Part shown: one piece after another, positions 3,520-60,000 of the stretch
How the letters are laid out: every line of letters begins with the position of its first letter
How positions within the stretch are numbered: the stretch's first letter is position 1
Assembly: GCA_037893245.1 (NCBI GenBank)
Contig: JBAIAA010000019.1
Span: forward strand, 744,001 to 808,000
Direction: 5' to 3'
DNA: 64,000 nt
Source of the DNA: Crossaster papposus
Taxonomy: Eukaryota; Echinodermata; Asteroidea; Velatida; Solasteridae
Position numbers and translations under genes: made by a program
Notes under the pieces: model-generated
Database searches by the model: none
Told to the model about the DNA's origin: nothing
Seen by the model: only the letters and a program-made list of their open reading frames with translations

Positions 3520-4440
3520 AGTGCATGCATTAATAAGGGAATAAATGTGTGTTCGAGAGGTTTTAATCACTCTGTTTAATACCGCTTGGAGTCTGGGTGC
3601 TGATAATTACCCGAGCTGAAGGCGAGGGTAATTATCAGCACCCAGACTCCAAGCGGTATTAAACAGAGTGATTAATGCCGACCGAACACACATTTATTCC
3701 CATTCATAAATACTTTTTTGTAAAATTCAGCCCAAAAAGCCCCGAAAATCCCGGAAAATTGTCGCAAGTAAATGTTGGTGTTTCGCCATTCTGTCTGTGT
3801 CAAATGACATGTTTCCGCCTCTGTCGCTCTCTACGCAATACATGCAATAAAGCGTATTTACTGTGAACCAGACTATTACTGTCATTGGCAACCTCGTTCC
3901 CAAGGTGTCGAGCTGTACGCGCCCAACACTACCCGCTCTTACTATTGGAGACGAGGTACGGTTCAGGGTTGGAAATAAAGTGAGCCCTGGGGACGGAATG
4001 TTGTTTCCAGCTGGGTTTAAACACTTCCAGCCATGTCTTTATCGTCCGTTTAATACCGGCCACGTGACGGGCTCTTGACCAATAGGAATGCCTAAACTGT
4101 CCCAGGTATTTATGAATGCGTCATAAATATTGATTCAGTGCTGTCCCATTCTTTTCTGCGAAAAAGCCTTTGTTTTTGTCCTGATTTTGTTTCTTTTCTA
4201 CTTCTTCCTTTTTTTCTTCAAAGTATCCATATTTTTGCACGATTCGTAATTTTCTCGGTTTTTTTTTTATCAGATCCGGAGAAAGATGACGAAGCAACAG
4301 AAATGCTGATTGGCAATGCGCAGAACTTGATGCAAGCAGTTAAGGAATCGGTGCGCGCTTCCGAGGCTGCTTCCATCAAGATACGCACTGACGCGGGACT
4401 GAAACTGCGCTGGGTGCGCCGTAACCCATACGCTTACTAA
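34..4440 (+). CDS. VCL: Vinculin, C-terminal tail (last three exons; 5' part outside window)
   Basis: Vinculin links integrin and cadherin adhesions to F-actin; its C-terminal tail bundle binds actin and acidic lipids. Three exons are visible: 34-157, 3352-3442 and 4274-4440 (stop TAA at 4438-4440). Each is bounded by AG acceptors and GTAAG donors, and the phases agree (1 nt carried in, then phase 0, then phase 1). Together they give about 126 residues. Recognisable vinculin-tail blocks are QCTDKRIR before the first donor, [20 protein letters not shown] in the second exon, and [29 protein letters not shown] in the last. The protein ends NPYAY where vertebrate vinculin ends TPWYQ, so the C-terminal arm is kept. 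The RTDAG...LRWVR ending argues against alpha-catenin. Introns 1 and 2 carry foldback elements, a poly-G run and a long palindrome. No clear AATAAA is seen in the first 200 bases after the stop. Confidence 0.95.
172..1242. mobile_element. TGTGACC-ended foldback element (CTGCTCCAACG family), interrupted
   Basis: Inverted ends are TGTGACCTGCTCCAACGAAA at the left and the complement of TTTCGTTAGAAAAGGTCACA at the right. It starts 14 bases after the vinculin splice donor. Related copies lie at 8012-8434 and 51020-51438 (about 420 bp each). This copy is longer because a second foldback element (284-922) is inserted near its middle. Confidence 0.75.
284..922. mobile_element. TGTGACC-ended foldback element (CTGTCACCACG family), nested
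   Basis: Ends are TGTGACCTGTCACCACGAAA and its complement at 903-922, followed inward by GAGAGTAAAGTCG on both sides. It is a 639 bp element with long imperfect inverted arms and no coding potential. Further copies are at 27226-27795, 29691-30322 and, diverged, 62995-63407. It sits inside the element at 172-1242. Confidence 0.75.
1245..1382 (-). repeat. Fragment of the TTAA/AAAGGTAGTATACACC foldback family
   Basis: The stretch contains the internal blocks CCCGACGCCGG, GGCATCCATGATTGTAAAAC and CAGTTAAACGATATTTACC found inside the full copies at 6539-6925 and 24877-25218. Both ends are missing. Confidence 0.6.
1580..1855 (+). repeat. Dispersed repeat (GGGAATTTACTTNCAACGATG family)
   Basis: The block GATGTTAGTCTCTGGCTATG followed by TTGTACTTTATAAAAAAGTTA recurs at 4625-4770, and a more diverged copy lies at 23865-24085. 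No ends or coding sequence were recognised. Confidence 0.6.
1930..2145 (+). mobile_element. Partial CAGTTCGCGCCGG foldback element
   Basis: The right end (CCGGCGCGAACTGGTTAA) and internal blocks such as GTTTATGCGTCATCCGTTTT match the full copies at 41563-41804 and 56290-56533. The left terminus is missing or degraded. Confidence 0.6.
2251..2694. mobile_element. TGTGACC-ended foldback element (GGCTCTACAAAAAGG family)
   Basis: Left end TGTGACCGGCTCTACAAAAA and right end TTTTTGTAGAGCCGGTCACA are perfect complements, spanning 444 bp. The interior includes CGTTCTGTTGTAGTACAACA, which is itself palindromic. Partial copies occur near 22736-22900 and at 37850-38547. No coding region. Confidence 0.75.
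2766..3312. mobile_element. Foldback element (ACTGACTTGTTCACACAGC ends), interrupted
   Basis: The left part TGGTACACTGACTTGTTCAC is mirrored at about 3260-3282. Inside it, the TATATCACGTGATTCGGGGC arms face each other. The right arm is split after GCCAAGCTGTGTG by about 185 bp containing CGATCAAGGATCGAAACAC, a sequence also seen at 34683-34850 and around 35460-36290. A cleaner copy is at 7431-7820. Confidence 0.65.
3499..3518 (+). repeat. Poly-G run
   Basis: Twenty uninterrupted G directly follow a T-rich tract in the last vinculin intron but one. Such a run can form G-quadruplex DNA and its length is likely variable. Confidence 0.8.
3538..3701. repeat. Near-perfect palindrome in vinculin intron
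   Basis: Arms of about 75 bp face each other around GAGCTGAAGGCGAGG. TACCGCTTGGAGTCTGGGTG in the left arm is matched exactly by CACCCAGACTCCAAGCGGTA in the right, and the outermost GGGAATAAATGTGTGTTCG also pairs. It could extrude a long hairpin. Confidence 0.85.
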
Positions 4441-17998: not shown

Positions 17999-18250
17999 TG
18001 TAGTCCACTGACTCCGATACGCTAGCCACGAGTTTCCTTGCGCCTCCTCTGTTTTCGTCCTATTCGCCTCCTTTGTTTCCGTCCTTTTGACGAGCGCTTA
18101 CCGTGTACGTCTTCCACGGTCAAGATCTAACCAGCAACTCCCTGCACACACCACGTATTGTGCATGATGCTCCGCCGCTAAAACGCCCTCAAGCGTTAGC
18201 GCTGCACTATGGCGCGCCTAATCGTGCAGACATATAAATATTGAACTAGC

Positions 18251-18538
18251 AATTTCCAATATTGTGGAGTTCAGTATGTCGGAGAGACCAAAAATGCCCT
18301 AAAAAAGCGTTTCTACGGTCATCCATCGACTGTCAACACCAAGAAACTGGATACCCCTGTAGGACATCACTTTAACCAGCCTAACCATTGCATTTCTGAT
18401 ATGATTCTTCAGGGCATAGAATCACTTGGTCTTGGCCATCGGAAAGACTCAGTCCGCCTCAGCCGGGAGAAAGTCTGGATGAATCGTCTTCGGACTATTC
18501 AACCACATGGGCTTAACATCCAACTAGGAAATGATTAA
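18251..18538 (+). pseudogene. Penelope-like element, GIY-YIG endonuclease C-terminal fragment
   Basis: The open frame ends at TAA 18536-18538 and reads about 95 residues. It contains YCGVQYVGETKNALKKRF, then TPVGHHFNQPNH, a MILQGIESL strand, and EKVWMNRLRTIQPHGLN near the end. That order is the GIY-YIG nuclease found C-terminal to the reverse transcriptase in Penelope-like retroelements. The reverse transcriptase is absent, so this is a 5'-truncated insertion. The GIY block is represented here by QYVG. The Tyr, Arg and Glu expected for catalysis appear present (Y of QYVG, R of KKRF, E of REKVW). Confidence 0.8.
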
Positions 18539-20554: not shown

Positions 20555-23500
20555 ATGGCAAGCCATTCTGGAAAACAGCAAGGTAAGCGTTATCATTTTC
20601 TTTCAATTAAAAACAAACTTATTTCGGATATTGAAACACCCAACATTATGAAATTTATGTTTAAGAGAAAAATAATATTTTTGACAGATTTTTTTTTAAA
20701 TTCTGGCCCATTTTTTCCCTTAAAAACGACAAATCTGTACAGAATTCGATTTGGAATGTACTCTGGGGCCCTCAAAGGTAGTATACACAATTTGCAGATA
20801 TCAAAAATATTTACTACCATTATTAAGAAATATCTTACTCATTTGAAAGTAAATAATGATTCTAGGCATCCAGCAAAATGATTGCGCTAGATATTCTGTA
20901 ATTATTCTGAAAAATAGAATTTCATGAAGAAAAATTCGTGATCGCCGGATGGCGATCGCGAAAAAACAAAGATAACAGGAATAACTGCCCAACGCCGGTT
21001 TTTCGTGCTTTTCTCGGCATCCACGATTGTAAAACTTCGGACAGGTCAGTTAAACGATATTTACTATGAAATACAACCCCCCCAAATCCACCCATTAATG
21101 ATAATTCAAGCAATTACCAATGGTGTATCCTACCTTTTAAGGCATCTTATTAAAAAGTTTCAGCGAATTCAAGTTTTCCAAAATTTGAAGAAAAAAATGC
21201 AAAGGGTTTAACCTTGCATTTTTAATTGAATTTGGCCGAAAAAAAACTTTTTCCCAAACAATGCCGACATTTTTCTGAATGCCAGAAGAGCATCAATCAG
21301 TATTCAAACATCATAAATTGTGAAGATTTGCGGGAAAAATTTGTAGATATTTTAAGAAACAAATAATATTTGTGTCTGATTTTCAGGTGTGAGGAATTAA
21401 AGCAATTAATTGATATTAAAGTGCCTTGTTTTTATTTCAGGTGGTCAAGAAGGGGCTTCGAAAAGCCGAAGCGCAGCAGACGTACCGGTACGTATAAAAT
21501 ATACCCCCCACCCCCCCCCCCCCCCCCCCTGCGCCGGACAAATTTGAATACATTTATTAAGTTTTGTTTATGTGACCCGCTCCATCGTAATCAGGAATAA
21601 GTCGCTGGGGCTGTTTTACGCAATTGGTCGTTGAAGTTAACGCATGGGTGAAAATCGTGACCAAGTCGATTTTCTGAACATTGTATTTTTAGGAAGTGTA
21701 GTATGTAAAAACGATCAATATGAAAATAAAGAGGATTTGTTATTCGCTGTCCGTATGATTTTTGTGAATTTTTTTTATTTCAAAGCTGTTTTCTCGGAAT
21801 GTTGATTCGGCAAATAAATACACACCTGTCATCTTCATCAGCCCATAACTCGTTAACCTAAGAAGATACACACTTGTGATGGGTATCATTAGGAAGCTTA
21901 TGAAATTCCCTTTCTCACCATGTGCATATCTCAAAAAGTCATTTCGAGACTTATTCCTGATTTCGATGGAGCGGGTCACATATTTTGTTTTATTTGGAGT
22001 AAATAAATCAAGAACCTCTGCACAATATTGTTATCGTTCGTACCATACCTATAGAGAGACCATATCTCATTGGACCTGATGATGTCGATCATTTCAACAA
22101 GTTGGGACACGCTATATATCCCTGTTACAACTAGAACCAGGGGCCAATTTCATAGAGCTGCTAAGCACAAAAATTTGCTTAGCACAACAAAATCTTGCTC
22201 ATTAAAAACAGCTTACCAGCCAAAATTCTACGTGTTTTTCATGCTAAGCCAAAAACCAGCTGATTATCAATCGAAAAACAATTAAGATCACGTGAAAAGT
22301 TCGTCTGTAACCTTGTTTTTGCCAAGGACAAATTTTCATGCTAAGCAAATTTGTGTGCCTAGCAGCTCTATGAAATTGGTCCCTGTTGTGAGGACATTTA
22401 AATACTTATACAAATCACCACGAAATAACTATACAGTTTTGCTATGCATTAGGTATAAACACAAAGAATGGACCCATACCGGTATACAAGCTTTAACCAT
22501 GCAGTTTGATCCGGAGGATGTTTATACCGGTACACGCAAACATTTCCCCATATTCAAAACGGATGACGCATAAACACGTCACGAGCAAGGCTGGAAATGT
22601 CTGTCAGCAGCGAGCAAGGCCGGAAATGCGTGGGTGTGCTTCCCGGTACCATCGGCCTGAACCCGCCTCGGATCGAGTTTCGTTAAATTATAATCCCGCG
22701 CCTTGGCTTAGTGATGTTAAAAATAATCCCACCTTATTTATCAAAATCAACATTTCTTTGAATGAAACCTGAAACTGTAGGTATTGAAGATGTCATTCAT
22801 GACAACAAATAAAAATCACATTTGCATGAAATGTTTACCCTCTCAACGTTGAGCGAGCCATTACATGATAGTGCACAGCGCGACTTAATTAACCCATGGT
22901 AAAAAACACACAGGTAAAAAACACACATGGTTGTTCCAACGGACTGTTCGCACATCACGTTTGTATTCTGTACTTTTAAGTTAACATCATTGGTGTATAC
23001 ATGGATGCATGTGTGTTCAGAATACAAGTCTGGAGGTTTTAACAGGTTGAGTGGAGGTCAACTGGGCACACATGACAAACATAAGCACAATGGTAATTTG
23101 CATAATTAGTTTACCACTAATTAGCTAATAATACATGTTTATTTTACCTCTAAATAGGCACTACCACCCCTCCCCCATTGGTTGGCAACAGCTGTTGTTT
23201 CCACAAGGCACAGGTCAAAGTAGAAGTGATTGATTGCCAGCTGTAGATTCTGGGGTTTTCCCAGTGTGAGTAAAAAAATCTGAGAACAGAGATTTGACTA
23301 TATTATATGCCTCATTGACTTGTGTACAAATTTCATCCTTGTTTGGCGCCATACACAAAGGATGACATTTGTACACAAGTCAATGAGGTGGCATGTCGGA
23401 TATCGATCTCTGTTCTCTGATTTTTCACTTACACTGGGGACCGGGGAAACCCGGTTAAAGGTGATTAAAGGTGACTACACAAAGTCAAACTGGGCATATT

Positions 23501-26500
23501 GATTGAGCAATACATACTAGTGTGTCGCCCATATTGGCCGAATTCTTTTGGAGTTATTGGATTTTTTGCTTTTAGCGAGAAAGCCTTTGTTTTTGTTCTG
23601 TTTTTGTTCTCTTCTTCCTCTTCTTCTTCTTCTTCGTCCATACATCGCATAGACTTTGTACACGTTTCATTCTGGAGGTCACTTTTGTCATTAAACAGAC
23701 TTCAATTTCATTGAAACTTTGCACATACTCAGAACTATCATACTGAGCTAGTGCGTAAAACTTGGATGTCATGATGACGTCATCAGGTGACATGTGACGT
23801 CATCTAAAGGTGCAATATATTTAATCTTTGAAAATCAATACAAAATCAACCGCGAAATAACGGGACTTGAAGTTTGTGGGAATTGATAGAATAATGAAGG
23901 ATCTTCAATTTATCTCGTTTGCGTAAAATCACGTGACCCTTCTTTCCGGTCGAAACTGCAAGTGCCTTATAATTTGAAAGTGGAAAATGATGGAAACTTA
24001 CTTTCACAGATGGTAGTCTTTGGCTAGGTTGTATAGTTAATACACAAAAGTTACCGGTGCATGACCTCATAAAATGTTATAGCGCCCTCTAGCGGCAGGT
24101 TGAAAATGTGTAAAATGAATAATCAGTTGACGTGTGTGGCAAAGTTTGCTCAAATCACTTCTGATGTATATTCAGCTTTATGCTAAGAACATGTTGAAGG
24201 AGAAGAACAGAATGCCATGATATATGCTCTGTTTATTGAACAGACATACTTCTAGTTTAAAACCAATTTTGTTGTACGTACTGCTGTTGCTCCGATCAGG
24301 TTTCCATTGTTGTAGAGCCGGTCACAAATGTCACACTTTGTGTCTGAACTTCATGTAACAATTAACCCAAATCAGTGTGAAATGATTATTTTTTTAAATG
24401 GTTAATTTCAGGAAATCACCGGCGCAGAAGTGTTTCTTCAGCACCCAGACAATCTAAAGGAACGGGTGGACTTTGGGATGAGACTTGATGACGTCGATGG
24501 ACAACTCATCCTGTCAGAGACGGTGGAAAATAGCCTGGGCCGCGCCGCAGGAATCTAGTACGTATTCAAAAAGAATTATAAAAAGATACTAAAGCAAAAC
24601 AATTAAGTCTTGTAGGCCATGACACTAGGAAAGGGCATGCATAAAGCGATTTCGTATTCAAAGCAGATTTTGTATTCAAAGCAGGATTTGATCTCAACTA
24701 AAGATTTCCAAAATCACATGTAAATGCTCTAATAAATTCACAGCCCCGGTCAAAATTCACACCCTCAGTCAAAATTCACACCCTCATTCAGTCAAAATTC
24801 ACATTCTCCGTTCAAATTCACATCCTGGATAAGGTCGTAAAAATGCAAATTCACACCATATTTGGACTTTAACGACTTAAAGGTAGGATACACCATTGGT
24901 AATTGCTCGAATTATCATTAATGGGTAGATTTGGGGGGTTGTATTTTATAGTAAATATCATTTAACTGACCTGTCCGAAGTTTTACAATCATGGATGCCG
25001 AAAAAAGCATGAAAAACAGCAGTTGTTTTCAACCGACATTGGGCAGTTATTCTTTTTTTTTTTCAGAATTTTATTTTTCGGAATAATTACAGGATATCTA
25101 GTGCAATCATTTTGCTGGATGCCTAGAATCGTTATTTACTTTCAAATGAGTAAGATATTTCTTAATAATTCGGTAGTAAATTTGTTCGATATCTGCAAAT
25201 GGTGTATACTACCTTTAAACCCAGGATGTAAATTTAGACCAGGGACGTGATTTTGGAAGTCCTCGCACTGTTATAACCTTTAATAAATACCTTTTTAACA
25301 AGAAAAATTGTGAAAATGCTCCAAATTTCATGACTTATTTTTCCGTGGTATTTCCAGCATTTTGTGTTCATGTTTAGGGGCCATGTTTTAGCTTATGCAT
25401 GGTACCCTGTCTCTTCAATATGTGTAGATATAACCCATACTTTGAGACCAGACTAGCGGACCACTGATGCCCACCGTGCATAGCAACGAGCTAGCGTTAG
25501 CAGACGACACGCGCAGTTTGAAAAATGCCGCGCCTATAGATACAAACCTTCTATGCGTACATTTATAGCGCGCAGTATAAAGATTTGACGCGTCCTTGTT
25601 ACAAGTTACCGTAGAACTGTTGCATTCGGCCAATCATGGGCTTACATGATGCTCGATTAATGCTGGTTCAGGGAACATTTATTCGCTTCTTCTTGAAAGC
25701 CGGGTTATTACTACATAATAATCCCCTCCATGTGATCGAGTCTCGACCAATCAGAAGCCATCAACTTTCGTAGGTATTTATTAATGTGTGATAACATTGC
25801 ATGCAGCGTGTCTATTTATCCGGCGCAACCCCAGAACGCCATTCTGTGATCGGAATGTTTGTTCACATCAGCTCAATCCCAAACGCCATCAGTATCCCCG
25901 TTGTTTGTTTTCGTTTTTACACTAGCAATGGTGATGTTCTCGTAAACATCAACGGCGCAGACATCAAAGAATGGAAAGTCCAAGATCTTTTGAAACTTCT
26001 CCGTGAGATGAAGCCGAAACTCCTTATGGTGAGTTAGAAAAACTTAGCAGCCAACTAGGCCTTAGCAACTAACTAGGCCTTAGCAGCCTGCTATAGAGCC
26101 GTAGTTTGCTGCTCTGTGGTTACCAACTAATTTTATATTCATAAAATAGCAACCTTGCTAAGAATGTTACCAGCTAGTTGACAGCTAGATATTTTAAGCA
26201 CGCAGCTGGGACAGCAGGCAAGTTGCCAGCTAGTGACTTAGAGACACCCCATCAGATCAACTCTAATGTTAGCAGTTAACTTAAGCAAACAACTAAGCTT
26301 AGCAAAGTGTTATGAATATCACTTATCTTCCAACTAGGCTTAAGCTGTCAACTAGAGGCCATTTTAGCAGCCAATTAGGTTTAGCAGGCTTTTAAGAATA
26401 TCGGCCCTGGTGTTTATGACTTCTGACTTGCGCCCTCGAACAAATAAGATACTGACAGTTTGGGAACCCGTTAACGTAGGGCAAGATAGCTCAGTTGGTA

Positions 26501-29500
26501 GAGTACCGGTCCCGTATTCCAGAGGCCGCAGGTTCAAGTCCCGCCTTGCCAATTTCTTCGTTCCTTTTAATAGTTATGCAAATTTACCTAGTCAGTTTCT
26601 CTTGTGGTTTTTTGGTGTATAAAAAAATGTCCATGAAATTTGTAACCTCCAAGTTTTAGGAATATCCTAAAATAGAAAGAAAAAAGATGATTTTTTCCAG
26701 CTTTTTTAGACAAGTTGTTGTTACAATGAAGTTGGCCCCTGGTCATCAAACGGTTTAAATCAAAATAGTTTTTGCATAGCATGATAAAAAGGAGCTATTA
26801 CTCTCATTAGCTATCCCTATCTCTACAACTCTGACCTAAACAGTGGCTCATTAACACTGCCATCAATTTGTTAAATTCGTCTGAAGGAAGTCAAGGAACC
26901 AGACTGCAAGAACAGCACCTTTTTTTTTCCTAGGTTTTTCCAGCTTCGATGAACACAAAACTTTAAACAGGTCAGCGTCCTAAAATGGTCTTTTAATTGT
27001 CCAATTTTTTTTTTGTCAAACAGGGCGTTAAGCGTCAATTGGATGAAGAATTACATGTGTTCGTGTGGTCGTACTTCAAACTTGTCAGAGATGAAGGTAA
27101 AACTGCCAAACTCAGGATTTCAAAACTCGGCTTTATTTATACTCTTGGATCTTAGACAATAGGCCTAACCCTCTTAACTCAAGTTTTTTCGTATTTCCCT
27201 TGTTATCTGGTACAATACCGGTAAATGTGACCTGTCACCACAAAATGAAAGTAAAGTCGGAAATATTGAAAATTGAGATATTGGTATTTTCAAATTCCTA
27301 AGGAAGAGAGCTTTCCAATGGTATGTAACACTTTTTGCGATAAATACCTTTTTACATCGCTCTAGAAAGTCATGGGTTTCACAAAACATGTTTACAAAAC
27401 AGGACAAGTAAGGTTCGGTTGAGCATAGCAAAGGCTATGTTCTAATTATTATTTCTGCTTGAAATATTCCACACATACAAACTATTGTATAAACAACAAA
27501 ATATCAAAATTATGATAACGTGGGATACTTACGAGGACCTGATTTGCATATTTAATTACCAAGTTAATTAGACCACTAATGAACTTTTACGCAAACAATA
27601 CGCAAAATCGTGTAATTTAAGAGGTTTTCAATCATCTGATCTCACCCAAAAAATAGGAATATGTAGAGGAGGACTTGGGCTTTCCAAATTACGCAAAATC
27701 TTAAAATTGATCACCTCTTCATATTTTGACTTGGGATAGCTAATCTATGAGTCACATCGTGCGACTTTACTCTCATTTTGTGGTGACAGGTCACAAATTA
27801 GATCTCATCAATATATTTGATCCTATTCCTCCATAGTACCCTACTCTCTAAATGTAAAAGATGATAAAAAGCCTACCACACTCAACAAGATTGAGTCTCT
27901 TATAAAACCACATTAAAAAAAGGAAAAATCAGGTTTTTAAGAGCGAAAACTACTCAAAAAGAGTGAAACCACTCCATAAAGAGTGAAATTGTCAATCTAA
28001 TTGAGCAGCCAGCCAACTCTAAAAAAGAGCTAAAGTGGTTTCAGGCCTCAAAGTTCCCGGCGGCCACGACGGCCATGGCCGCCGGTGCCCTTCATACTGG
28101 CCGTGGTGCCTCGAGAAAATCTGACATTTTTACGGCCAAAAATGCCTTGCCCTTTTTCTCAGATGGCCGCCGTGCCCTTTTTGAGATCAAAATTAATGTT
28201 TTTATGTCGGCGATAAATGGCACACGGCGGTCGCCGGGACGGAGTATTTTGTGTGCAAATAAAATTCCCCGCAAAAAATAACTGGATTATTTAAAACCGA
28301 ACACGTACTTTGTACACCCACACATGTACTTTATGTACATGTATGCTCTGTATCACACACGCACACACAGAGCGTCGGTTGCTGCTTCATAGCTATTTAA
28401 AAACTCACGGACGGACGGGCGGGGAAGACGGCCGGGACACACGACGTACACACTGTACTAGGGCCGGGGGGGAAAGCCACGCCGCCAGCAGCAGCAGCAT
28501 GTGAACGATGCAGAACGACAGCCTTGCGTAAGAGAGTAGTCTTTGGGCAAGACGTTGCTTAATTCGCAGCCACGAGAGGGCGCTATCGCGACAAACATCA
28601 TCACTCGCCATGGCGAGTGATGATGGTTTGTCGCGATAGCGCCCTCTCGTGGCTGCGAATTAAGCAACGTCTTGCCCAAAGACTAGTAAGAGAGACGCAC
28701 ATTGTTTATTCCAAATTTGTACACGGGCCGGAAGTACTTGCTTGGTCCCCAACGACCGTTTGAGAACAATTGCACTGGTACTCATCTTGCAACACGCGTA
28801 TCTACGCATGGTTGTCGAGGTTGGCGCCCGGCTAAATTGCACTGTACTGGGACTGTGCTTGTTCACTGGTGTTCGTAGATGTTTGTGCACGTAAATCACG
28901 CATCATCTACACATGTATATTTGCACATGACATGTGCCCCTTCGGGATCAAAATGAAACCCGTTCAACTGTCACTCGCTTTATACTAGGGGTTCGGAAAA
29001 CGCGTTGAGTTAAAACTCCGCGATGTTTTCGGGAAAAATCTGGGGCCGAACGCGTGGACGGGTGGATCGGTTTTTCTCGGGAAAAGTTTGGCGGAGCAAA
29101 AGGGCTTCATTCACAAAAAGTATGAGCTGTCGTACATCTACCCTACTGCTATTTTATGTGCATTATTCGATAGCTGAAAGTCAGGGGTTTCAAATGAAGG
29201 TTTTACTTGCAGTTTCTGACATAGTTAGAAAAGTCGTACAATTTGGGGGATAAACATTGGTTAGATTGGTTAGATTTTCGGCGCACGGACAGTCTGTGTG
29301 TGGATGTCTTCAGTCGCGGTGAGTTGGGCTGAATACTCTTAGGAAATTATTTTAATTTTACATTTTTTAATAGAATAATTAAAACAAATTATAAAATTAA
29401 TTAATCCTCCCCCAAAATTTTTAGATGGTGAAAAACAAAAAGGAAATCAGAGGGGGGCCTTGGTGCCCTTTCCTTAACTTGCAAGTTGGCCTTGGTGCCC

Positions 29501-32500
29501 TACCTCATGGCCTCGGTGCCCTTTAAAAATTTGACCAATTCAAGGCCAAAGTGGCCTTGCCCTAAAAATTGCGAAGTTTGAGGCCTGTGGTTTTATAAAT
29601 GAGAGACTCACTCTTTCTGGGAGTGGGATTTTCACTCTCTAAATTCCAGAGAGTATACCTGAAACAAGGCAGTGTCTAGTCTATTTACATATGACCTGTC
29701 ACCACAAAATGAGAGTAAAGTCGCACAATGTGATTCAGAGATATGGCCATACAAAGTCAAAATATGAAGGGGTGGTCAATTTTAAGATTTTGCGTAATTT
29801 GGAAAGCCAAAGTGCTCCTGTACATGTTCCCATTTTTTTGGGTGATCGAGATCCGATGATCGAACCCCTCTTAAATTACGCGATTTTGCGTAGTTAGTGT
29901 TTGGATTAAAGTCCATTAGTGGTATAATTAACACGGTAATTAAATATGCAAATCAAGTCCTCGTCAGTATCCCACGTTTTCAAAATTTTGATATTTTGTT
30001 GTTTATACAATAGTTTGTATGTGTGGAAAATTTCAAAAAGAAATAATGATTAATACATAGCCATTGCTATGCTCAACCGAACCTTACTTGTTCTGTTTTG
30101 TAATTTTTTGCGTGTTTTTGTTAATATGTTTAAAGTAAGTTTTCTCACCAACACGTTTTGTGAAACCCATGACTTTCTAGAGCGCTGTAAAAAGTATTTA
30201 TCGCAAAACCCCCAAGTGTTATGTATCATTGGAAAGCTCTCTTTCTGAGGAATTTGGAAATACCAATATCTAAATTTTCAATATTTCCGACTTTACTCTC
30301 ATTTTGTGATGACAGGTCGCATATTATTAGTAGCAGTTTACACCATTTGCAAACATCAAGGAGCAAAACTACTAAAATCTTATGAAATACCTTACTTGAC
30401 TCTATAAGTGAATAACAGTCTCGTAATCATAAAAGCATCCTGTAAAATCACGGAACCTGAAGTGCAATTTTGTATCAATTTTAAACGATTGCCGGCCGGC
30501 AATTGGTGTAAAAACCTGACTATTTTCAAACACTGCCCCCAATTTATTCAATTCGTCTGAAAATAGTCAAAGAACTAAACTGCAAGAACAGCATTTTTTC
30601 TTGGCTTTTTCAGCTTCTAGGAACACAAAGCTTTAAACACGTCAGCATCACAAATATTTACTATAGAGTATGAACCCTCTACCCCATCCTTTTTCGAAAA
30701 TTACAGCAATAGCCAAAAGCGAATGGCGTATATACTTTTAAAACATTAGTTTATGAGGCAAACAATCAAACATTTCAAGCCGGGTTTTTCTAACAGACAT
30801 TCAGTAATTTCATTGTTCCGTGTATCTTAGATGACAAGCCAAGGGTGGATATTCTGTTCTTGACTCGGACGAATACAGATGAGGTGCCAAAGATTGAGGT
30901 CACTTCAAGCACGTCGTATGAATGGTTAGGACCACCTGCTGCCCCCTTCGACATAATTTCTTCACAGGGAAATCAAACATCTTATCTGAGCATTTCCAAT
31001 CATTGGTTGAAGTTTGAGACCACTTACAATGGAGATACAAGTAGGTATTTGTGATAGTTTGAATTTGTATACCACATGCAGCAGCAGCAGCAGCAACAAC
31101 AATAGCAACAGCAACAGCAACATGCCACAGCAACATGCCACAGCATGTAGCATCAACAGCAGCAGCATCAACAAACAAAAAGAGCGGCGGCAGCAGCAGC
31201 AGCAGCAGCGGCGGCAGCAAAACCAGTGGCGCAGCAGCAGCAGCAGCAGCAGCAGCAAAACCAGCGGCGCAGCAGCAGCAGCAGCAGCAAAACCAGCGGC
31301 GCAGCAGCAGCAGCAGCAAAACCAGCGGCGCAGCAGCAGCAAAACCAGCGCCGCAGCAGCAGCAGCAAAACCAGCGCCGCAGCAGCAGCAGCAAAACCAG
31401 CGGCGCAGCAGCAGCAGCAGCAAAAACAGCGCCAGCAAAAACAGTGCAGCAAAAACAGCAACAGCAACAGCAACAGCAACTGTAGTTTCAACAAAAACAT
31501 AAAAAATACAACAACAATAAAACAGCAGCAGCAGCAGCAATAGCAGCAGCAACAATACAACAGCAGCATCATGCAGCAGCATCAGCGACATCAACAGCAA
31601 AACAGCAGCAGCAACAATAAAACAACAGCAGCAACAGCAGCACCAAAAGCAGCGCAGCAGTAGCAACTGCTACTGTAGGACCAGCATGCTGGAGAATGCT
31701 ATAACAATCTGCTGAAATGGCAACACTGCTAAGTACAAGCAAAGTCGACAGCAAGACCAGCGAGACCAGAACCAAGTCATACCAGAAAAGTAGCAGCAAC
31801 AACAGCAGCGACAGCAACTGCAGCGACAGCAACAGCAGCAACAATAGCAGCGGCAACAATAAAACAACAACAACAACAGCAGCGCAGCAGCAGCAACTGC
31901 AGGACCAGCATGCTGGAGAATGCTATAACAATAAGCTGAAATGGCAACACTGATAAGTACAAGCAAAGTCGACAGCGAGACCAACAGCAGCAACAGCAAC
32001 AGCAGCAAGACATTGATAAACAGCAACAGCAACTGTAGTTTTAAACAAAAACATAAAAAATACAACAGCCACATTTTACGCTGTATTCACAACTATTTTG
32101 TCTGTAGGTCAGTTTTACCGATATGTCTACGTCGGTCCAGGAGAGCCAGGAAACGGCAATCCGGTCATATTCTCCCTGGAGAACTACAACGAACCATTGA
32201 CCAGATCAACCACACCAGAAACTGTTGAATCTCCAAATGCCGATCGCACATTAGGCGTCACGGTAAGCATATAAACTAGTCTGAAACATTCCATGTTAAA
32301 GGTAGGATACACCATTGGTAATTGCTTGAATTATCGGGAATGGGTGGATGTAAAGGTAGGATACACCATTGATAATTGCTTGAATTATCAGGAATGGGTG
32401 GATGTAAAGGTAGGATACGCCATTGGTAATTGCTTGAATTATCAGGAATGGGTGGATGTAAAGGTAGGATACACCATTGGTAATTGCTTGAATTATCAGG

Positions 32501-33727
32501 AATGGGTGGATGTAAAGGTAGGATACACCATTGGTAATTGCTTGAATTATCAGGATTGGGTGGATGTAAAGGTAGGATACACCATTGGTAATTGCTTGAA
32601 TTATCAGGAATGGGTGGATGTAAAGGTATGATACACCATTGGTAATTGCTTGAATTATCAGGAATGGGTGGATGTAAAGGTAGGATACGCCATTGGTAAT
32701 TGCTTGAATTATTAGGAATGGATGGATGTAAAGGTCATATACACCATTGGTAATTGCTTGAATTATCAGGAATGGGTGGATTTGAGGGGTTGTATTTTAT
32801 AGTAAATATCGTTTAACTAACTAACTAATTTTTGTCAATCATCTATGCCGGGAAAAAAGCAAACAAAACGGCAATTGTTCTAGATCTTGTTGTTATTGTT
32901 GGCGATCGTGATTTTGTTTTATAACGGCATTCCGGTCATATACTCCCTGCAGGCAAACCAGAAACCAGCCAAATATACAACACCAGAAACGGTTCAATAT
33001 CCCAAAGCCAATCCCTCATCAGCTGTCACGGTAAGATAATACTGTACTAGTCCAAAACATTCCATGTTAACCAGTTCGCGCCGGAGGACGTACCGGGTAT
33101 ATATACACGCAACATTTCCTCGAGATTTAAAACGGATGACGCATAAACACGCCACGAGCAAGGCCGGAATGTCTGTTGGCAGCGAGCAAGGCCGATAATG
33201 CGTGGGTGTGCTTCCCGGTACCATCGGCCTGAACCCGCCAAGGATCCAGTTTCGTTTGAAATAATCCCGGGCCTCGGCATCGGCAATGCTAAAATAATCC
33301 TGGCACGAACTGGTTAAAGGTCGGAAACGTTGGCGCTGCTATTGGTCTGTTCGATGAAAATGCAATTTGTGATCGCAATTCGAATTGTGACTCGGCAAAT
33401 TTTGAAATGAAATCAAAATCTTAGAGTATTGTTTTGCTCAGAATATGTGCAGCATTCACAGAGCTAAAAACTTCATCAGGTTGTTTGTCAAGCAACTTTG
33501 TCAAACAAATTGAGTATTTTTACTGCTTCAAACGATAAAAATGCACAACGGACAAATTGTATATATTTCCCCTTTAATGTCTGATGTGTGATTTATAATT
33601 TGTAATTGAAACGAAATAGGCAAGAGAGAGCAAAACCACGTTTGACCTTGCTTGATCAGTTTGATCAGTTTCAAAATGTTCTCACATGTTGGCAGCGCCA
33701 GACCTTTGGACGTCAGGCCCGTACGCA

Positions 33728-33762
<35 letters not shown>

Positions 33763-36700
33763 TAACGGGTGCGTACGCACTCCCCAAATTACCAAAAGGT
33801 CCACATTTTCCGGGATAAATAATGGTATTTTGATGTAGAAATAACAGTACTGGCACACGAAAATGGACTAGCCTAATTAGGCCATAATGTCAACAACAAA
33901 ATTTGCAACCCCCATAAAACATTCTGCGTACGGGCCTGGACGTACGTGCCATCCTAGTTTTTTTCTGTAAACCTTTGTTTGTCATCGTCTTCATCTCTGA
34001 CTTCTGAATCACTGAAACAAAAATATTCTATAAGGAAAGTGATACTTTTGGCGTAATCATACATGCAGCTTACGTTTTTTTTTTAATTATTAGAACGATT
34101 CTCGGGGACATGGGAAGGACATTAAATTGAAGGACGTGTCACGCTGGGTTATGTGGATTTTTTTCTGCCACTGACTATCAGGTTTTAGATGAAGTACTTT
34201 TGCAAGAGAATAGCAATGAGAAAAGTGTTTTTTTTTACTTATTAGAACGATTCCCGGTCACATGGGAAGGACATTACATTGAAGGACGTGTAACGTCAAT
34301 ATTTGATATTTTTTTAAATACCCTACCCAATAAATTATATATCATTTTTAAGCTAAGAATTCAAGGAATTTGAAAATACCAATATCTCAAAATATCAAAA
34401 TAACAACTTTACTCTGATTTTGTGGGAGCAGCGGCCGATTTCACGAAACGCTAGGATTAATCCTATCTCGAGTTAGGATGAGTAACTCATCCTAACTTGC
34501 ATTGGATCTATTGCAAGTTAGGAGGAGTTACTCTTCCTAAGATTGATCCTAACATTGGTGAAATCGGCCGCAGGTCACATGCCATAATTACATATATTTA
34601 TATACTTCCAAATAGGCACTTGGGAAGACAAATCTACTACATGTATATGTACACAAACTTAAAACAGTCCTATAGTTCGTGAATTGCCATTACGACCGAG
34701 GATCCCCTATTGTGTTTTCCTTTACTGTAACCTAACCCCATTACCTAGTGCTTACCGGAGCGATCGAGGACAAAGAAACCGTCCTTCGAGGATCTTTTGT
34801 TCCCTTTGTTTTCTTTTGTGTTTCGATCCTGGATCGCAAAAGGAAACAAGAGCTAACTTGTTTACCCTAACCCTTTTCTCTAAGATCTTCAAGATTTATG
34901 CTATTTAGGCCAAAATCTGTCGTCCTAGGACAAAAATAACTCCCAAATATTGTTTTTTAGGGTAGCTAGACACTTAGGGAAACACTGAAATGTCTCCCTA
35001 AGTGCCACCGTCTCCTTATTACCTAAAAACTTACGCTAATTTGTCTCCCCAAGTGACTATTTGGAAGAATTATTTAACCCTTTGTCCTTTTGTAGAATTT
35101 TCCAAAACCTACCCAGGGAGTACCTGTACCGTTGAACTCTCGTTTCTGGTACCAAAAGCTGGATCCTAACACTGGTGAAAATTCTCTTGAGAGCATCCAG
35201 TATACAGGTAGGTTTATGTACTCGCCATTTAAAAAGCCCACCATTTTGAGTCTGGGTTTAGACTCTATTTAATGACGGTCCTGTAGTATTAATCGTCCCC
35301 CACTAAAGAAGAGACGAATGCAGTAAATAATCAAATACAAGATGGAATCGATTTCAATCAACATCTGCATTCGTGGGCGTGAAAAGTTTCGCGAAAAAAA
35401 TACGAAAGAAAAAACAAAAAAAAACAAGAAACAAACAAATAAGCACATGTAGAAGAAAAAACACACAGTCGTGTTTTGCCACAACGACCGAGGATCCCTT
35501 ATTATTTTTCCTTTTGTTCCTGTACTGTAACCTAACCCCATAGGCTTAGCGTACACCTTAACGCCAAAGGACAAAATTCAACCAAAGACGAACACCCCAG
35601 GATTGAAAGGATCTATTGTTCGCCTATTGTGTTTCCGTCCTCAGGAATTATGTAGTACCTGAACACCCAAACAAACATCAACGACTCAGGATACCCTACT
35701 GTGTTTCCCTTTGTTCCTGTACTAACCTCATAGACTTAGCGTACACCTTAACGTCCAAGGATCTACTGTTCGCCTATTGTGTTTCCGTCCTCGGGGGGGT
35801 TATGTAGTACCTGAACACCCAAACAAACATCAACGACTGAGGATACCCTACTGTGTTTCCCTTTGTTCCTGTACTAACCTCATAGACTTAGCGTACACTT
35901 TAACGCCCAAGGATCTACTGTTAGCCTATTGTGTTTCCATCCTCGGGGGTTATGTAGTACCTGAACACCCAAACAAACATCAACGACTCAGGATACCCTA
36001 CTGTGTTTCCCTTTGTTCCTGTACTAACCTCATAGACTTAGCGTACACCTTAACGTCCAAGGATCTACTGTTCGCCTATTGTGTTTCCGTCCTCGGGGGG
36101 GTTATGTAGTACCTGAACACCCAAACAAACATCAACGACTGAGGATACCCTACTGTGTTTCCCTTTGTTCCTGTACTAACCTCATAGACTTAGCTAAGTA
36201 CACCTTAACGCCCAAGGACAAAATTCAACCAAAGACGAACACCCAACTGAAAGGATCTATTGTTCGCCTATTGTTCTTCCGTTCTTAGGGGTTATGTAGT
36301 CGCGAAGGTCTACCCAAGACTATTTAGGCCTTCCCAAGTGACGATTAAATCAGTCAGCATTCCCCTGTTGTGTATACTGTTGTGTACTGGAACTGACTAT
36401 TTGTTCATGATTTGAACACAGTGCATTGTACGTCTTGCCCCCCACCCCCCACCCTCTTCCCGTATGGCACTTGTAAACATAGGAACCCTTAGATTTGATA
36501 CGCATAAACGGGATACATAACATTGTACGTACAAGTCGTTGAAAAAGTGGCCTGTGAAACCACCATTTTGCGTTATAATTTCATAGTCTTACACTATATA
36601 TTTTAACATTTTGATATAAGTTGTCGATAGTGCATACAGTCACATACATGTGCGCATCTTGTACGCGTATCAAATCTAATGTTTATATACTCCCGCCATG

Positions 36701-36837
36701 CGAATCTCACATTCCGTTTTAGGACTTTCTTACCTTATTTTCCTTTTTTTATTTAAGGTTGGTACTTGAACAACAGTAAAGGCACTGGTACTGTATGCAA
36801 AACCGCGGAGTTTTTTAATATTGCGGAAAGTAAATGA
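20555..36837 (+). CDS. PDZ domain plus interleukin-1-like beta-trefoil protein (nine exons)
   Basis: Exons: 20555-20582, 21441-21487, 24412-24557, 25926-26028, 27024-27096, 30831-31040, 32108-32262, 35096-35207, 36758-36837 (TGA). All junctions are GT-AG and all phases agree, giving 317 residues. Residues 26-112 form a PDZ domain: carboxylate loop FGMRL at 46-50, then SLGRAAGIYNGDVLVNING and a helix EWKVQDLLKLLRE. Residues from about 118 are strand-rich. The end RFWYQKLDPNTGENSLESIQ followed by YTGWYLNNSKGTGTV lines up with the last strands of IL-1 family cytokines, whose signature is F-x-S-x3-P-x-[WY]-[FYLI]-[LI]. There is no signal peptide or membrane segment and only one Cys (305), as in leaderless cytokines. 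The PDZ call is firm. The IL-1 assignment rests on short motifs; another beta-trefoil (FGF-like) is the main alternative. Confidence 0.7.
20772..21140. mobile_element. AAAGGTAGTATACACC foldback element in intron 1
   Basis: The left end TCAAAGGTAGTATACACAA and the right end TGGTGTATCCTACCTTTTAA enclose the family's usual interior (TATCTAGCGCAATCATTTTG on the - strand, and GGCGATCGCG). It is a full-length copy with one border mutated to TCAA. Confidence 0.8.
21571..21980. mobile_element. TGTGACC-ended foldback element (CGCTCCATCG family) in intron 2
   Basis: TGTGACCCGCTCCATCGTAA and its mirror TTTCGATGGAGCGGGTCACA bound 410 bp. GGAATAAGTCGC follows inside the left end. A second copy is at 54636-55063 in the same orientation. 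Confidence 0.8.
22141..22383. mobile_element. Foldback element (GGCCAATTTCATAGAGCTGC family) in intron 2
   Basis: The ends GGGCCAATTTCATAGAGCTG and CAGCTCTATGAAATTGGTCC pair, and TGCTAAGC words line the interior. It is close in size to 19321-19570. Confidence 0.8.
22480..22920. repeat. Two partial foldback elements back to back
   Basis: 22500-22735 matches the CAGTTCGCGCCGG family (GGATGACGCATAAACACG, CCGGAAATGCGTGGGTGTGC). 22736-22900 matches the GGCTCTACAAAAAGG family (AATGAAACCTGAAACTGTAG, TGATAGTGCACAGCGCGACT). Both lack one end. Confidence 0.6.
23252..23453. repeat. Inverted repeat in intron 2
   Basis: Left-arm words GACTTGTGTACAAATTTCAT and ATCTGAGAACAGAGAT are mirrored as ATGACATTTGTACACAAGTC and ATCTCTGTTCTCTGAT. 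The loop holds TTGTTTGGCGCCATACAC. It is probably another foldback element whose ends are unclear. Confidence 0.65.
24620..25256. mobile_element. GCATTCAAAGCGG / AATTCACATCC foldback element, interrupted
   Basis: Both arms carry words such as AAGATTTCCAAAATCACAT and AATTCACACCCTC or their complements, as in 56107-56713 and 62338-62965. A complete AAAGGTAGTATACACC element (24877-25218) is inserted at a TTAA near its middle. It lies in intron 3 of the PDZ/beta-trefoil gene. Confidence 0.65.
24877..25218. mobile_element. AAAGGTAGTATACACC foldback element, full copy, nested
   Basis: TTAAAGGTAGGATACACCAT at the left and ATGGTGTATACTACCTTTAA at the right, each with the TTAA border. The flanks CTTTAACGACTTAA and TTTAAACCCAGGATG belong to the host element at 24620-25256. 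Confidence 0.85.
26041..26405. repeat. CTAGGCTTAGCA-rich repeat in intron 4
   Basis: Words AACTAGGCCTTAGCA, AGCAACCTTGCTAAGAATG and CAGCTAGTTG repeat with variations, as in the TIR element at 12590-13275. It starts 13 bases after the exon 4 donor and ends AAGAATATCGGCCCTGG. Confidence 0.55.
26480..26551 (+). repeat. tRNA-like sequence, probably a pseudogene or SINE head
   Basis: GGCAAGATAGCTCAGTTGGT at the start, the B-box GGTTCAAGTCC and a 3' CCTTGCCA give a near cloverleaf of 72 bases. The acceptor stem pairs at six of seven positions, but the anticodon stem has two mismatches and the T-arm is one base short. I therefore do not call it a working tRNA gene. Confidence 0.5.
27226..27795. mobile_element. 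TGTGACC-ended foldback element (CTGTCACCACG family) in intron 5
   Basis: TGTGACCTGTCACCACAAAA and TTTTGTGGTGACAGGTCACA are exact mirrors, 570 bp apart in total. The interior closely matches 284-922, including GGACAAGTAAGGTTCGGTTG. Confidence 0.85.
27880..29660. repeat. Large composite inverted-repeat region in intron 5
   Basis: The outer part has GAGTGAAACCACTCC words, mirrored loosely near 29590-29660 (AGAGACTCACTCTTTC). Inside, AGGCCTCAAAGTTCCC at 28043 faces GAAGTTTGAGGCCTG at 29570, and both flanks carry GCC(A/T)TGGCC and GGTGCCCTT words. A long palindrome (28537-28685) lies within. No coding exon was recognised. Confidence 0.5.
28537..28685. repeat. 149 bp near-perfect palindrome
   Basis: The arms are 74 bp, differing by one inserted G. 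TTGGGCAAGACGTTGCTTAA and GAGAGGGCGCTATCGCGACA in the left arm are exactly complementary to the right arm, and the centre is TCGCCATGGCGA with no spacer. Confidence 0.9.
29691..30322. mobile_element. TGTGACC-ended foldback element (CTGTCACCACG family) in intron 5
   Basis: The left ATGACCTGTCACCACAAAAT and the right ATTTTGTGATGACAGGTCGC are mirrors with one substitution. The interior is in the opposite orientation to 27226-27795, so two copies lie inverted in the same intron. Confidence 0.8.
30334..30760 (+). repeat. Dispersed repeat (CTTGACT...GCCGGCCGGCAATTG family)
   Basis: TTTACACCATTTGCAAACAT at the left and GAATGGCGTATATACTTTTA at the right are loosely inverted. GATTGCCGGCCGGCAATTG lies at the centre. 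It is the most complete copy of the family also seen at 12108-12580 and 19025-19690, and ends 70 bases before exon 6. Confidence 0.55.
31075..32042 (+). repeat. Nearly 1 kb CAG/GCA-type trinucleotide repeat region in intron 6
   Basis: From 35 bases after the exon 6 donor the sequence is dominated by GCA/CAG triplets with CAACAG, GCGGCA and AAACCAGC interruptions. A segment with GACCAGCATGCTGGAGAATG occurs twice (31680 and 31902), showing a larger duplication. Both strands lack stops over long stretches purely because of composition. Confidence 0.85.
32288..32790 (+). repeat. 54 bp tandem repeat made from a transposon end
   Basis: About nine copies of GGTAGGATACACCATTGGTA, ATTGCTTGAATTATCAGGAA, TGGGTGGATGTAAA in a row. 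The unit is the first 54 bp of the AAAGGTAGTATACACC element. After the last unit the element continues (GTTGTATTTTATAGTAAATA). It begins about 30 bases after the exon 7 donor. Because 54 is divisible by three, one frame stays open, but this is not a gene. Confidence 0.85.
32953..33030 (+). other. Possible alternative exon: duplicate of the 3' part of exon 7
   Basis: The segment ends TTCAATATCCCAAAGCCAAT...GCTGTCACG followed by GTAAGA. It reads in phase 0 as ANQKPAKYTTPETVQYPKAN, then PSSAVT. Exon 7 ends RSTTPETVESPNADRTLGVT with the same donor. A CTCCCTGCAG acceptor just before it makes a 78 bp cassette, in phase with both neighbours, that would add 26 residues. Similarity to exon 7 extends 23 bases further upstream (ATTCCGGTCATATACTCC). 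It may be a spliced exon or a decaying duplicate. Confidence 0.55.
33067..33317. mobile_element. CAGTTCGCGCCGG foldback element in intron 7
   Basis: TTAACCAGTTCGCGCCGGAG at the left and GCACGAACTGGTTAA at the right, with TTAA borders at 33067 and 33314. It lies 36 bases after the duplicate exon's donor. Confidence 0.8.
33716..33937. mobile_element. Foldback element with GGCCCGTACGCAG ends and a 33 G run
   Basis: GGCCCGTACGCAG at the left is mirrored by CTGCGTACGGGCC at the right. A run of 33 G follows the left end (33728-33760), then GGTGCGTACGCACTCCCC. The G run is probably unstable in length and may be misassembled. Confidence 0.7.
34431..34571. mobile_element. Small hairpin element (GCGGCCGATTTCAC ends)
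   Basis: GCGGCCGATTTCACGAAACG and the complement of CATTGGTGAAATCGGCCGC enclose two arms with GAGTTAGGATGAGTAACTC and its near copies. It is 141 bp. It splits a TGTGGGAGCA/CAGGTCACA end, so it inserted into another foldback element. Confidence 0.8.
34605..35070. mobile_element. Foldback element (CCAAATAGGCACTTGGG family), interrupted, in intron 7
   Basis: CTTCCAAATAGGCACTTGGG is mirrored by CCCAAGTGACTATTTGGAAG at the right. About 150 bp of the CGACCGAGGATCC repeat sits inside it from 34683. Cleaner copies are at 42911-43187 and 47803-48067. It ends 26 bases before exon 8. Confidence 0.7.
35460..36295 (+). repeat. 150 bp tandem repeat in intron 8
   Basis: The phrase TTATGTAGTACCTGAACACC recurs at about 35650, 35800, 35950 and 36100. 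Between repeats, CTGTGTTTCCCTTTGTTCCT and CATAGACTTAGCGTACACC are conserved. The unit is related to the CGATCCTCGGTCG sequence inserted at 3075-3260 and 34683-34850. Confidence 0.8.
36296..36757 (+). other. Rest of intron 8, no feature recognised
   Basis: This is ordinary mixed sequence, with a C-rich stretch at 36438-36455 and a pyrimidine tract ending in TTTAAG at the exon 9 acceptor. Nothing repeated or coding was found. Confidence 0.4.
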
Positions 36838-57044: not shown

Positions 57045-60000
57045 TTACTTTGGCAAATTGTAACCCGGCATCATCGAGTCACCCATGCCCATATTGTTAC
57101 CAGGTAGTTGGGGCGGTCCGAAACCAGGCCCGTAATTCCCAGGCATTTGTTGACCCATAGTGTTTGGCATTCCCATAGGAGGTCCTCCTCCATACTGCAT
57201 CGGTGGTCCAGCTCCAGCCATATACCCAGGCATTTGATGTCTGGGTCTGTTTGAGGTAGGGTATCCCTGTGGATACATTGAATCCGGGCCACACATTCTG
57301 CTAGATGGTCCGGGCATCCGCTGTGAAGGTCCAAACGACGGCGTCATGGATGGCGGATTCCCCGTTACCATTTCTAAAGGAAAAGGCATTTGGATTTGCT
57401 TGGGTGAAGGTCCAGGTCCGGGTCCTTGCGTTCCTGGGGTATTTGAAGGATTTAGATGGGGATTGCCAGACTGAGCCTGGGGTACCGGGGTAGGGTTTCC
57501 CTGCGGGAAGTATTGCAGCGTTTGCTTCGGTCCTTTCCCATCAGGGAGTAAGGGTGGGGAAAAGCGACTTTGCAGTAAAGAGAGAGGACTTGGGGACGAT
57601 GCGTGCACTGTCCTACCCGCCGGTGATTGGTTGATGGATTTAGATTCCATTTGCATCATTGATTCCCGCAGGTTTCCATCCATGTGCATCATTTGGGGCC
57701 CACCTCCTGGCATGCTAGTTCTCCCCATAGGTCCTGGATTAGGTCCCATGGTCGAAGACATCACTGGCAAGTTCCTGTGCATTTGCTTTGGTCCTGGGTA
57801 CCTACTAGGCATGTTGTGCATTCCACGCATGTCCGGCATACCTGCATTGTTAGGCATATTGCCAAGCATTGGGTAAAAACCCATGGGTCCATCCATGGAA
57901 TGAGGGTCTATGCCCATTGAGTGTGGCTCCATGACAGGACTGTGTGAAGAAATTCTTGTCTGCGGCGGCATGCCCTGCATCATAGTGGCCTGAGGGGACA
58001 TCATCCTCTGCTGTGGGATCATCCCAGTTTGCGATGTCACCATGCTACCATGCGACATCATCATTCCTCCTTGGGAGGCCATGCTTCCATGCGGTAGCAT
58101 CATGTTTTCCGGAGGCATACCGGGATTGCCGTGGGGTCCCATTAAACCCCCCGGTGGTCCCATCCTAGCTTGTGGCATCATCCCTTGCCTGGATGTCATT
58201 GCACTGGCCTGTTGTGCCATCAATTGTTGCGAGGTAGGCATTCGAGGCTGCATCATGCCAGCCTGAGGTGGCATGGAGTCATGTGGTAGCATCATATCAG
58301 TCTGAGGAGACATTATTCCTCCGTGTTGCGAGGTCATCATATCTTGTTGAGCCGTCATATTTCCTGGGTGAGACATCATGTCAGAGTGTCCTCTCATCAT
58401 TCCGGACTCTTGCAGGATCCCTTGCTGTGGCATGCCCTTGTCTCCAACATTTGTTCCTGAATGGGGCGGCAGCATCCTTGGTTGAGTTGTTATTTCCTGT
58501 TGTGATATTATTAGTTCTTGCGGATTGGTCATCCTTGGGTGTGATGTCATAATTTCCTGCGGATTTGTCATCCTTGGGTGTGATGTCATCATTTCTTGCG
58601 GATTTGTCATCCTTGAGTGTGAGGTTACCCCTTCTTGGGGATTTGCCATCCTTGGGTGTGACGTCATCATTTCTTGCGGATTTGCCATCCTTGGGTGTGA
58701 GGTCATCATTTCTTGCGGATTTGTCATCCTTGAGTGCGAGGTCATCATTTCTTGCGGATTTGCCATCCTTGGGTGTGAGGTCATCATTTCTTGCGGATTT
58801 GTCATCCTTGAGTGCGATGTCATCATTTCTTGCGGATTTGTCATCCTTGGGTGTGAAGTTATCATTTCTTGCGGATTCGTCATCCTTGAGTGCGATGTCA
58901 TCATTTCTTGCGGATTTGTCATCCTTGAGTGCGATGTCATCATTTCTTGCGGATTTGTCATCCTAGGGTGTGATGTCATCATTTCTTGTGGAGTTGTCAT
59001 CCTCGAGTGTGATGTCATCATTTCTTGCGGATTTGCCATCCTCGGGTGTGATGTCATTTCTTGCGGATTTGTCATCCTTGGTTGAGATTTTATCATGTCC
59101 TGTGGATTTGTCATCCTCGCTTGTGATGTCATCATCTCTTGCGGATTTTTCATCTTGGGTTGTGATGTCATCATTCCTGGCTGTGATGTCATCATTCGTG
59201 GTTGTGATGACATCATCCTTTGCTGTGATGTCATCATCCCCGTTTGCGACGTCATCAAGTCCGGCTGTGAATTAATCAAAGTCTGTGGGGTCATCATTCT
59301 TTGTTGAGGTCCCATCATTCCAGGTTGTGATGTGGCCATATCTTGTTGAGACCTCATCAACCCAGACTGCGCGGTCACATTGTCTCCACTTTGGCCCATC
59401 ATTTCCGATCCCATGGGGCTACCTGGTCCATAATACCTCGGCTTCGTGGATTCCTTCAAAGCCTTTTGATAAAACGTTGATGCATACTGCTGAGGATCTT
59501 CCCCACGCGGTGGAAAATTTGGTGCCTTGTCCCTGTTCAACTGACTCGGGGGAAAGTTCACCAACCTTTGCTGTGGAGCAGGTGTGTTCGTGGCTCCACC
59601 TGCAACACTTTCTACAGGCTTTGGATTAGATGAACTCTGAGCAAGTTGCCCATCCGTGGATTTGTTAGTGGATGATTCGGGGCCAGGTTTGGCTATTGGA
59701 GGTGTAATGCTGCTTGGGGTAGCCACCCCTTGCCTGTTTCCATTAACTGGGGCTGAATTAGGGGTTCCAGGCTGGGAACCGCCATTCTGATTAATCCTCA
59801 CAGTCTGGGAACTTGTATCCCCGACAGGTGTTGCTGGTTGAGGAGGTCTGGGCGACTGCTCTATACTGCTGCCCGTAGTGCGCGATTTACCTCCTATAGA
59901 AGAATCACCTGGGGTGTTTGGAGTCGAGACAGTTGTTGGGGTTGGTGGTTGATGACTTTGTCGATATGGACTGTCCTGCTGTGGCGACGCAGGTTGGCGA

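Follow-up and report, generated by a model that had tools for sequence, protein, structure and literature searches.

The stretch of the Crossaster papposus genome analysed here, called the window in what follows (64,000 nucleotides; contig JBAIAA010000019.1 of assembly GCA_037893245.1, positions 744,001 to 808,000), carries on its plus strand a sea star gene whose product joins a PDZ domain to a C-terminal domain with a predicted likeness to the interleukin-1 (IL-1) family of cytokines. The initial annotation of the window had read nine phase-compatible exons and a 317-residue protein at this locus, and the exons, rebuilt by script from 20555 to 36837, do join into a single open frame, with 317 codons before the stop. 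AG stands before and GT after the exons at all eight introns, and the phases are compatible at every one of the eight junctions (1,0,2,0,1,1,0,1, in order). The exons are the following:

20555..20582, plus strand: exon 1, start codon and MASHSGKQQ, aligned to the MGSCFGKRQ / MGCCFRKR start of the relatives
21441..21487, plus strand: exon 2, linker preceding the PDZ domain
24412..24557, plus strand: exon 3, first half of the PDZ domain
25926..26028, plus strand: exon 4, second half of the PDZ domain
27024..27096, plus strand: exon 5, final PDZ residues, then linker
30831..31040, plus strand: exon 6, linker, then beta1-beta3 of the predicted trefoil; phase 1 at both ends
32108..32262, plus strand: exon 7, beta4-beta5, then a long stretch; phase 1 at its start, phase 0 at its end
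35096..35207, plus strand: exon 8, beta8-beta9 including RFWY and SLES; phase 0 at its start, phase 1 at its end
36758..36837, plus strand: exon 9, GWYL, beta10-beta12 (the last strands) and the stop codon

The nine-exon gene is real and not a product of chance, because tblastn of five sea star relatives matches exons 3 to 8 in order and the protein aligns over its whole length with one of them, P0001 (47% identity, 100% of query length, E 3.8e-81). Exons 1, 2 and 9 are too short for tblastn and are supported by the full-length protein alignment. These five full-length relatives of the same architecture, found by protein searches, belong to Patiria miniata (P0001-P0004) and Acanthaster planci (P0005), both sea stars of the order Valvatida, and are annotated as uncharacterised PDZ proteins (LOC119720121, LOC119720123, LOC119720977 and LOC119737842 in the former, LOC110983422 in the latter). 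They are about 50% identical to the window protein and 45-89% identical to each other in the alignments made. A protein search with the trefoil part only returned the same five proteins and no relative lacking the PDZ domain. The pair of domains, which the initial annotation had proposed to look for elsewhere, is therefore present in five proteins of two sea stars, and none was found outside sea stars by searches that require shared five-residue words (one scored the 7994 candidates sharing most words) and may miss distant relatives.

Judged by sequence, the N-terminal half of the protein is a PDZ domain, as had been proposed at the outset. Pfam lists PF00595 above its cut-off at residues 46-110 of the window protein (E 6.4e-6), PF17820 above cut-off in all five relatives and PF00595 in four of them, and for the full-length proteins PDZ families alone are listed. 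The low cysteine content and the missing signal peptide, both remarked on earlier, also hold. The window protein has a single cysteine, and neither a leader-like N-terminus nor a membrane-like hydrophobic stretch appears in it or in the five relatives by the Kyte-Doolittle scale, no dedicated predictor having been run; the highest 19-residue mean is 0.47 in the window protein and 0.52-1.18 in the relatives. The lack of such a leader or membrane stretch agrees with what IL-1 precursors show. The six members begin in different ways, with MG[CS]CF in P0001, P0003 and P0005, MECCF in P0002, and MAS in P0004 and the window protein, and no start of the MG[CS]CF type occurs on the plus strand of the window. 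We take the MG[CS]C start to suggest a myristoyl plus palmitoyl anchor.

For the C-terminal half, in which the initial annotation had seen an IL-1-like trefoil, two AlphaFold2 models of relatives give a beta-trefoil, and in both of them Foldseek finds its best matches in IL-18 and other IL-1 family cytokines. On these models the domain is predicted to have a trefoil fold nearest to IL-1 and IL-18. Its trefoil part shows 10 strands in the models, whose predicted local distance difference test (pLDDT) values are low, compared with twelve in an IL-1 family trefoil. The motif that had been picked out by eye occurs as RFWY...L-[EQ]-S...G-W-Y-[LV], starting at residue 270 of the window protein, and four of the five relatives have it too (P0004 does not). 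It resembles the IL-1 family signature, F-F ... FES-PG-WF with a C-terminal F (PMC12108812), with Y in place of the second F and L in place of the F of FES.

Profile comparison by hhalign, in which five aligned sea star trefoils (without P0002) were set against five IL-1 family sequences, gives a score of 27.4 over 108 columns with the IL-1 strand order kept. None of 200 column shuffles reaches this score, the highest of them being 21.5, and reversing the alignment lowers it to 14.2. With a profile of two FGFs the score is 19.3, within the range of the shuffles against the IL-1 profile. When ten single sequences were compared in a second series, with 100 shuffles each, z was 5.3 for IL-1beta, 2.9 for IL-36Ra and 2.3 for IL-1Ra, compared with 1.7 for FGF1 and 1.3 for soybean trypsin inhibitor; the value for IL-18 is 3.3, but it comes from a short stretch aligned out of register and is not used as evidence. 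Sequence comparison favours a trefoil, and IL-1 specifically only mildly.

The introns add a further line of comparison. One of phase 1 interrupts codon 203, directly before QFYRYVYVG, whose counterpart in P0003 is placed by hhalign on VVFSMSFVQ of IL-1beta, and one of phase 0 follows codon 254, 15 residues before RFWY. In human IL1B a phase 1 intron falls at residue 40 of the mature protein, and a phase 0 intron follows residue 83, 14 residues ahead of RFVF. The two sea star introns are therefore within two codons of the IL-1beta positions and identical in phase, the IL1B places being computed from its exon lengths. Under uniform placement the probability that both match within two codons and in phase is 8e-4, a figure for which the places were set by hand and which does not account for the choice of alignment. 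The IL1B phases computed from the same lengths (2,0,1,1,0) equal those printed for IL-1beta genes, where the twelve strands lie in the last three exons (PMC4880838). At matching places the sea star trefoil has phases 1,1,0, as in that published IL-1 pattern, followed by an extra intron of phase 1.

A protein of this architecture, which the initial annotation had believed to be undescribed, is in fact published from fish: lumpfish nIL-1F, named as a novel IL-1 family member, is reported as a protein of 352 residues with a PDZ and an IL-1 family domain, and the nIL-1F clade is described as extending to cartilaginous fish (PMC7144542). According to a review, nIL-1Fm has no signal peptide, expression induced by IL-1beta in trout cells is inhibited by the C-terminal 169 residues of the trout protein, and receptor competition is described in grass carp (PMC4929537). 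Like nIL-1F (nIL-1Fm), the sea star proteins combine a PDZ and a predicted IL-1 domain in one chain of similar length (317-348 residues, against the 352 of lumpfish) and lack a signal peptide. The likeness rests on architecture, the PDZ domain being stated, in the account concerned, for lumpfish nIL-1F only, and the lumpfish gene has seven coding exons compared with nine in the sea star gene (PMC7144542). Caspase-1 and thrombin sites are predicted in published descriptions of nIL-1F; no conserved caspase site was seen, by eye only, in the sea star linker, and some sea star members, unlike nIL-1F, start with MG[CS]C. To IL-18 and IL-1beta the sea star protein is linked by the best Foldseek matches, to IL-1beta also by two introns alike in place and phase, and to the IL-1 family by the motif resembling FES-PG-WF. 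It differs from IL-18 and IL-1beta, which have no PDZ domain and no significant sequence similarity to it, and from IL1B also in its additional intron and in having more residues between strands 5 and 8.

A shared origin would account more readily than two separate fusions for PDZ-plus-IL-1-like proteins of similar size in fish and in sea stars, and by this analogy we infer that the gene is an echinoderm member of the PDZ-IL-1 type, homologous to nIL-1F. Its product is probably the leaderless precursor, kept inside the cell, of a cytokine of that type resembling the IL-1 family; the PDZ domain would hold it in place, with or without a lipid anchor, until the cytokine is released and bound by a receptor. 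PDZ contacts would keep the precursor on a scaffold or at the inner membrane surface, and the MG[CS]C terminus of some paralogues, as a putative myristoyl/palmitoyl anchor, may add a further hold. Damage or cleavage would then release the C-terminal trefoil of about 160 residues, and the freed domain might bind an IL-1R-like receptor as an agonist or, as fish nIL-1F reportedly does, as an antagonist.

Several observations weigh against this reading. No sequence search gives a significant match to IL-1, and for this reason the IL-1 kinship of the C-terminal domain is likely and not proven; the IL-1-like trefoil first proposed is supported in part, by the predicted fold and by the two introns. 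PF00340 (IL1) comes up below the cut-off of 25 bits in two of five trefoil fragments (E 0.092 and 0.16) and is absent from the window fragment, the full window protein and all five full-length relatives, the window fragment being listed by Pfam with an unrelated domain of unknown function alone (E 0.19). Searches of PDB sequences with the trefoil, single and as a profile, brought chance-like matches and no IL-1. The hhalign probability is only 16.9%, with E 0.0015 for a single comparison, and z amounts to nothing for IL-1alpha (1.4) and IL-33 (-0.3). The profile check proposed with the initial annotation came out divided, the IL-1 score exceeding all shuffles while PF00340 stayed under its cut-off and both hisactophilin (z 4.8) and FGF2 (z 4.6) beat their shuffles too, close to IL-1beta. 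The proposed structure check, run on the relatives, shared this fate: the trefoil lies nearest IL-18 and IL-1 by Foldseek, but mean pLDDT is 46.6 and 38.3, both models derive from the same five aligned sequences and leave strands 6-7 undefined, and VIA, which matched trefoils for both, ties IL-18 with trefoil lectins. That other trefoil families do not appear in the VIA lists was not counted as evidence. The third intron of the sea star trefoil, before GWYL, has no counterpart in IL1B, and the sole match outside sea stars in the protein searches was a bacterial PDZ protein (P0006, E 1.9e-4). What the introns indicate is the IL-1/FGF group and not IL-1 in particular, because those of FGF2 occupy the same two places with the same phases (the last two of 1,1,0). 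A 2018 study also argues that the fold may have independent origins, so that a trefoil by itself does not prove descent, and finds IL-18 and IL-33 to be as distant from IL-1 as the FGFs (PMC5861070).

The strongest competitor, in our view unlikely though deserving serious attention, is a C-terminal beta-trefoil of other than IL-1 descent, in an intracellular PDZ adaptor of hisactophilin-, fascin- or lectin-like kind with no role as a cytokine. It would accommodate the tie with lectins in VIA, the hisactophilin score and the possible independent origin of trefoils, and the MG[CS]C starts would suit a permanent protein of the inner membrane; set against it are the first place of the IL-1 family by Foldseek in both models, the intron places and phases held in common with IL-1beta and the same PDZ-plus-IL-1 pairing in lumpfish nIL-1F. 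Much less probable is a trefoil that belongs with the FGFs within the IL-1/FGF cytokine superfamily. The FGF2 score, obtained over the same beta8-beta10 stretch, and the shared introns of FGF2 speak for it, but the FGF profile does not rise above the shuffles, Pfam lists no FGF family for the trefoil fragments or the relatives (most matches above E 0.1 do not pass its filters), and we know of no PDZ-FGF protein, which we count against this alternative. Slightly more improbable still is that the domain is no trefoil at all and only looks like one in the models because the alignments behind them are shallow, as the low pLDDT of the models and their common set of five sequences might suggest, together with a sorting nexin FERM lobe weakly matched by one of five fragments (E 0.27). 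Finally, a wrong joining of two neighbouring genes, one with the PDZ exons and one with the C-terminal exons, is hardly credible, for despite the long introns and a spread of exons over 16 kb, both parts stand in one chain in five proteins annotated in two further sea star species, and the phases fit at every junction.

If the gene does encode a precursor of the PDZ-IL-1 type, its interest lies in where it occurs. IL-1-like activity was reported from Asterias forbesi in 1986. A 2022 review describes IL-1-like activities in echinoderms and other invertebrates with the molecule uncharacterised, and its relevant passages hold that there is no IL-1 gene orthologue outside vertebrates and that receptors preceded ligands (PMC9020223); the IL-1 gene is likewise given as missing in invertebrates and jawless vertebrates in a study of the same year (PMC9382457). 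No invertebrate IL-1 gene came to light in open-licence literature judged by title or abstract start, and the main text of a 2025 survey of trefoil architectures makes no mention of PDZ (PMC12225799). As the PDZ-IL-1 architecture is known from fish, what is new, and unexpected in this place, is the occurrence of an IL-1-type ligand outside vertebrates. If true, IL-1 predates vertebrates, the ligand moves back before their origin, the PDZ-IL-1 form of fish would be suggested to be the old one, and a named gene becomes available for testing the IL-1 activity of starfish. More tentatively, and with the balance rather against it, the entire IL-1 family may descend from PDZ-IL-1, a form older than the split between echinoderms and chordates, kept in sea stars and in fish nIL-1F, stripped of the PDZ part in IL-1beta and IL-18, and lost altogether in tetrapods. 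Lipid-anchored and unanchored sea star paralogues might then represent a single alarm cytokine in tethered and free form, and a protein of this kind could perhaps lie behind the Asterias forbesi activity.

Other features of the window are these:

32923..33030, plus strand: incomplete and diverged repeat of the 3' part of exon 7, lying some 800 bases downstream of that exon and, like the original, followed by a GTAAG donor
2-262 and 4270-4425, plus strand: exons for the C-terminus of a vinculin family protein (PF01044), upstream of the gene
57045-62261, minus strand: BCL9-like open reading frame of 1738 codons (PF11502, E 3e-9), downstream of the gene

The copy of exon 7 was considered as an alternative exon and rejected, there being no AG of fitting phase within 32800-32922; it is probably a decayed exon duplication. 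The BCL9-like frame contains a run of MMTS/TNPQE-like repeats, and an open reading frame at 18245-18535 has a weak GIY-YIG match below the cut-off (E 0.017), perhaps a retroelement remnant. The introns of the sea star gene have contents of their own: a tRNA-Thr (CGT) gene at 26479-26552 after exon 4, a long near-perfect inverted repeat at about 28545-28690 (by eye) after exon 5, a long low-complexity tract rich in CAG/AGC at 31080-32050 after exon 6, and, after exon 7, a 54-base tandem repeat at 32297-32800, of which a related single copy lies near 24859-24970.
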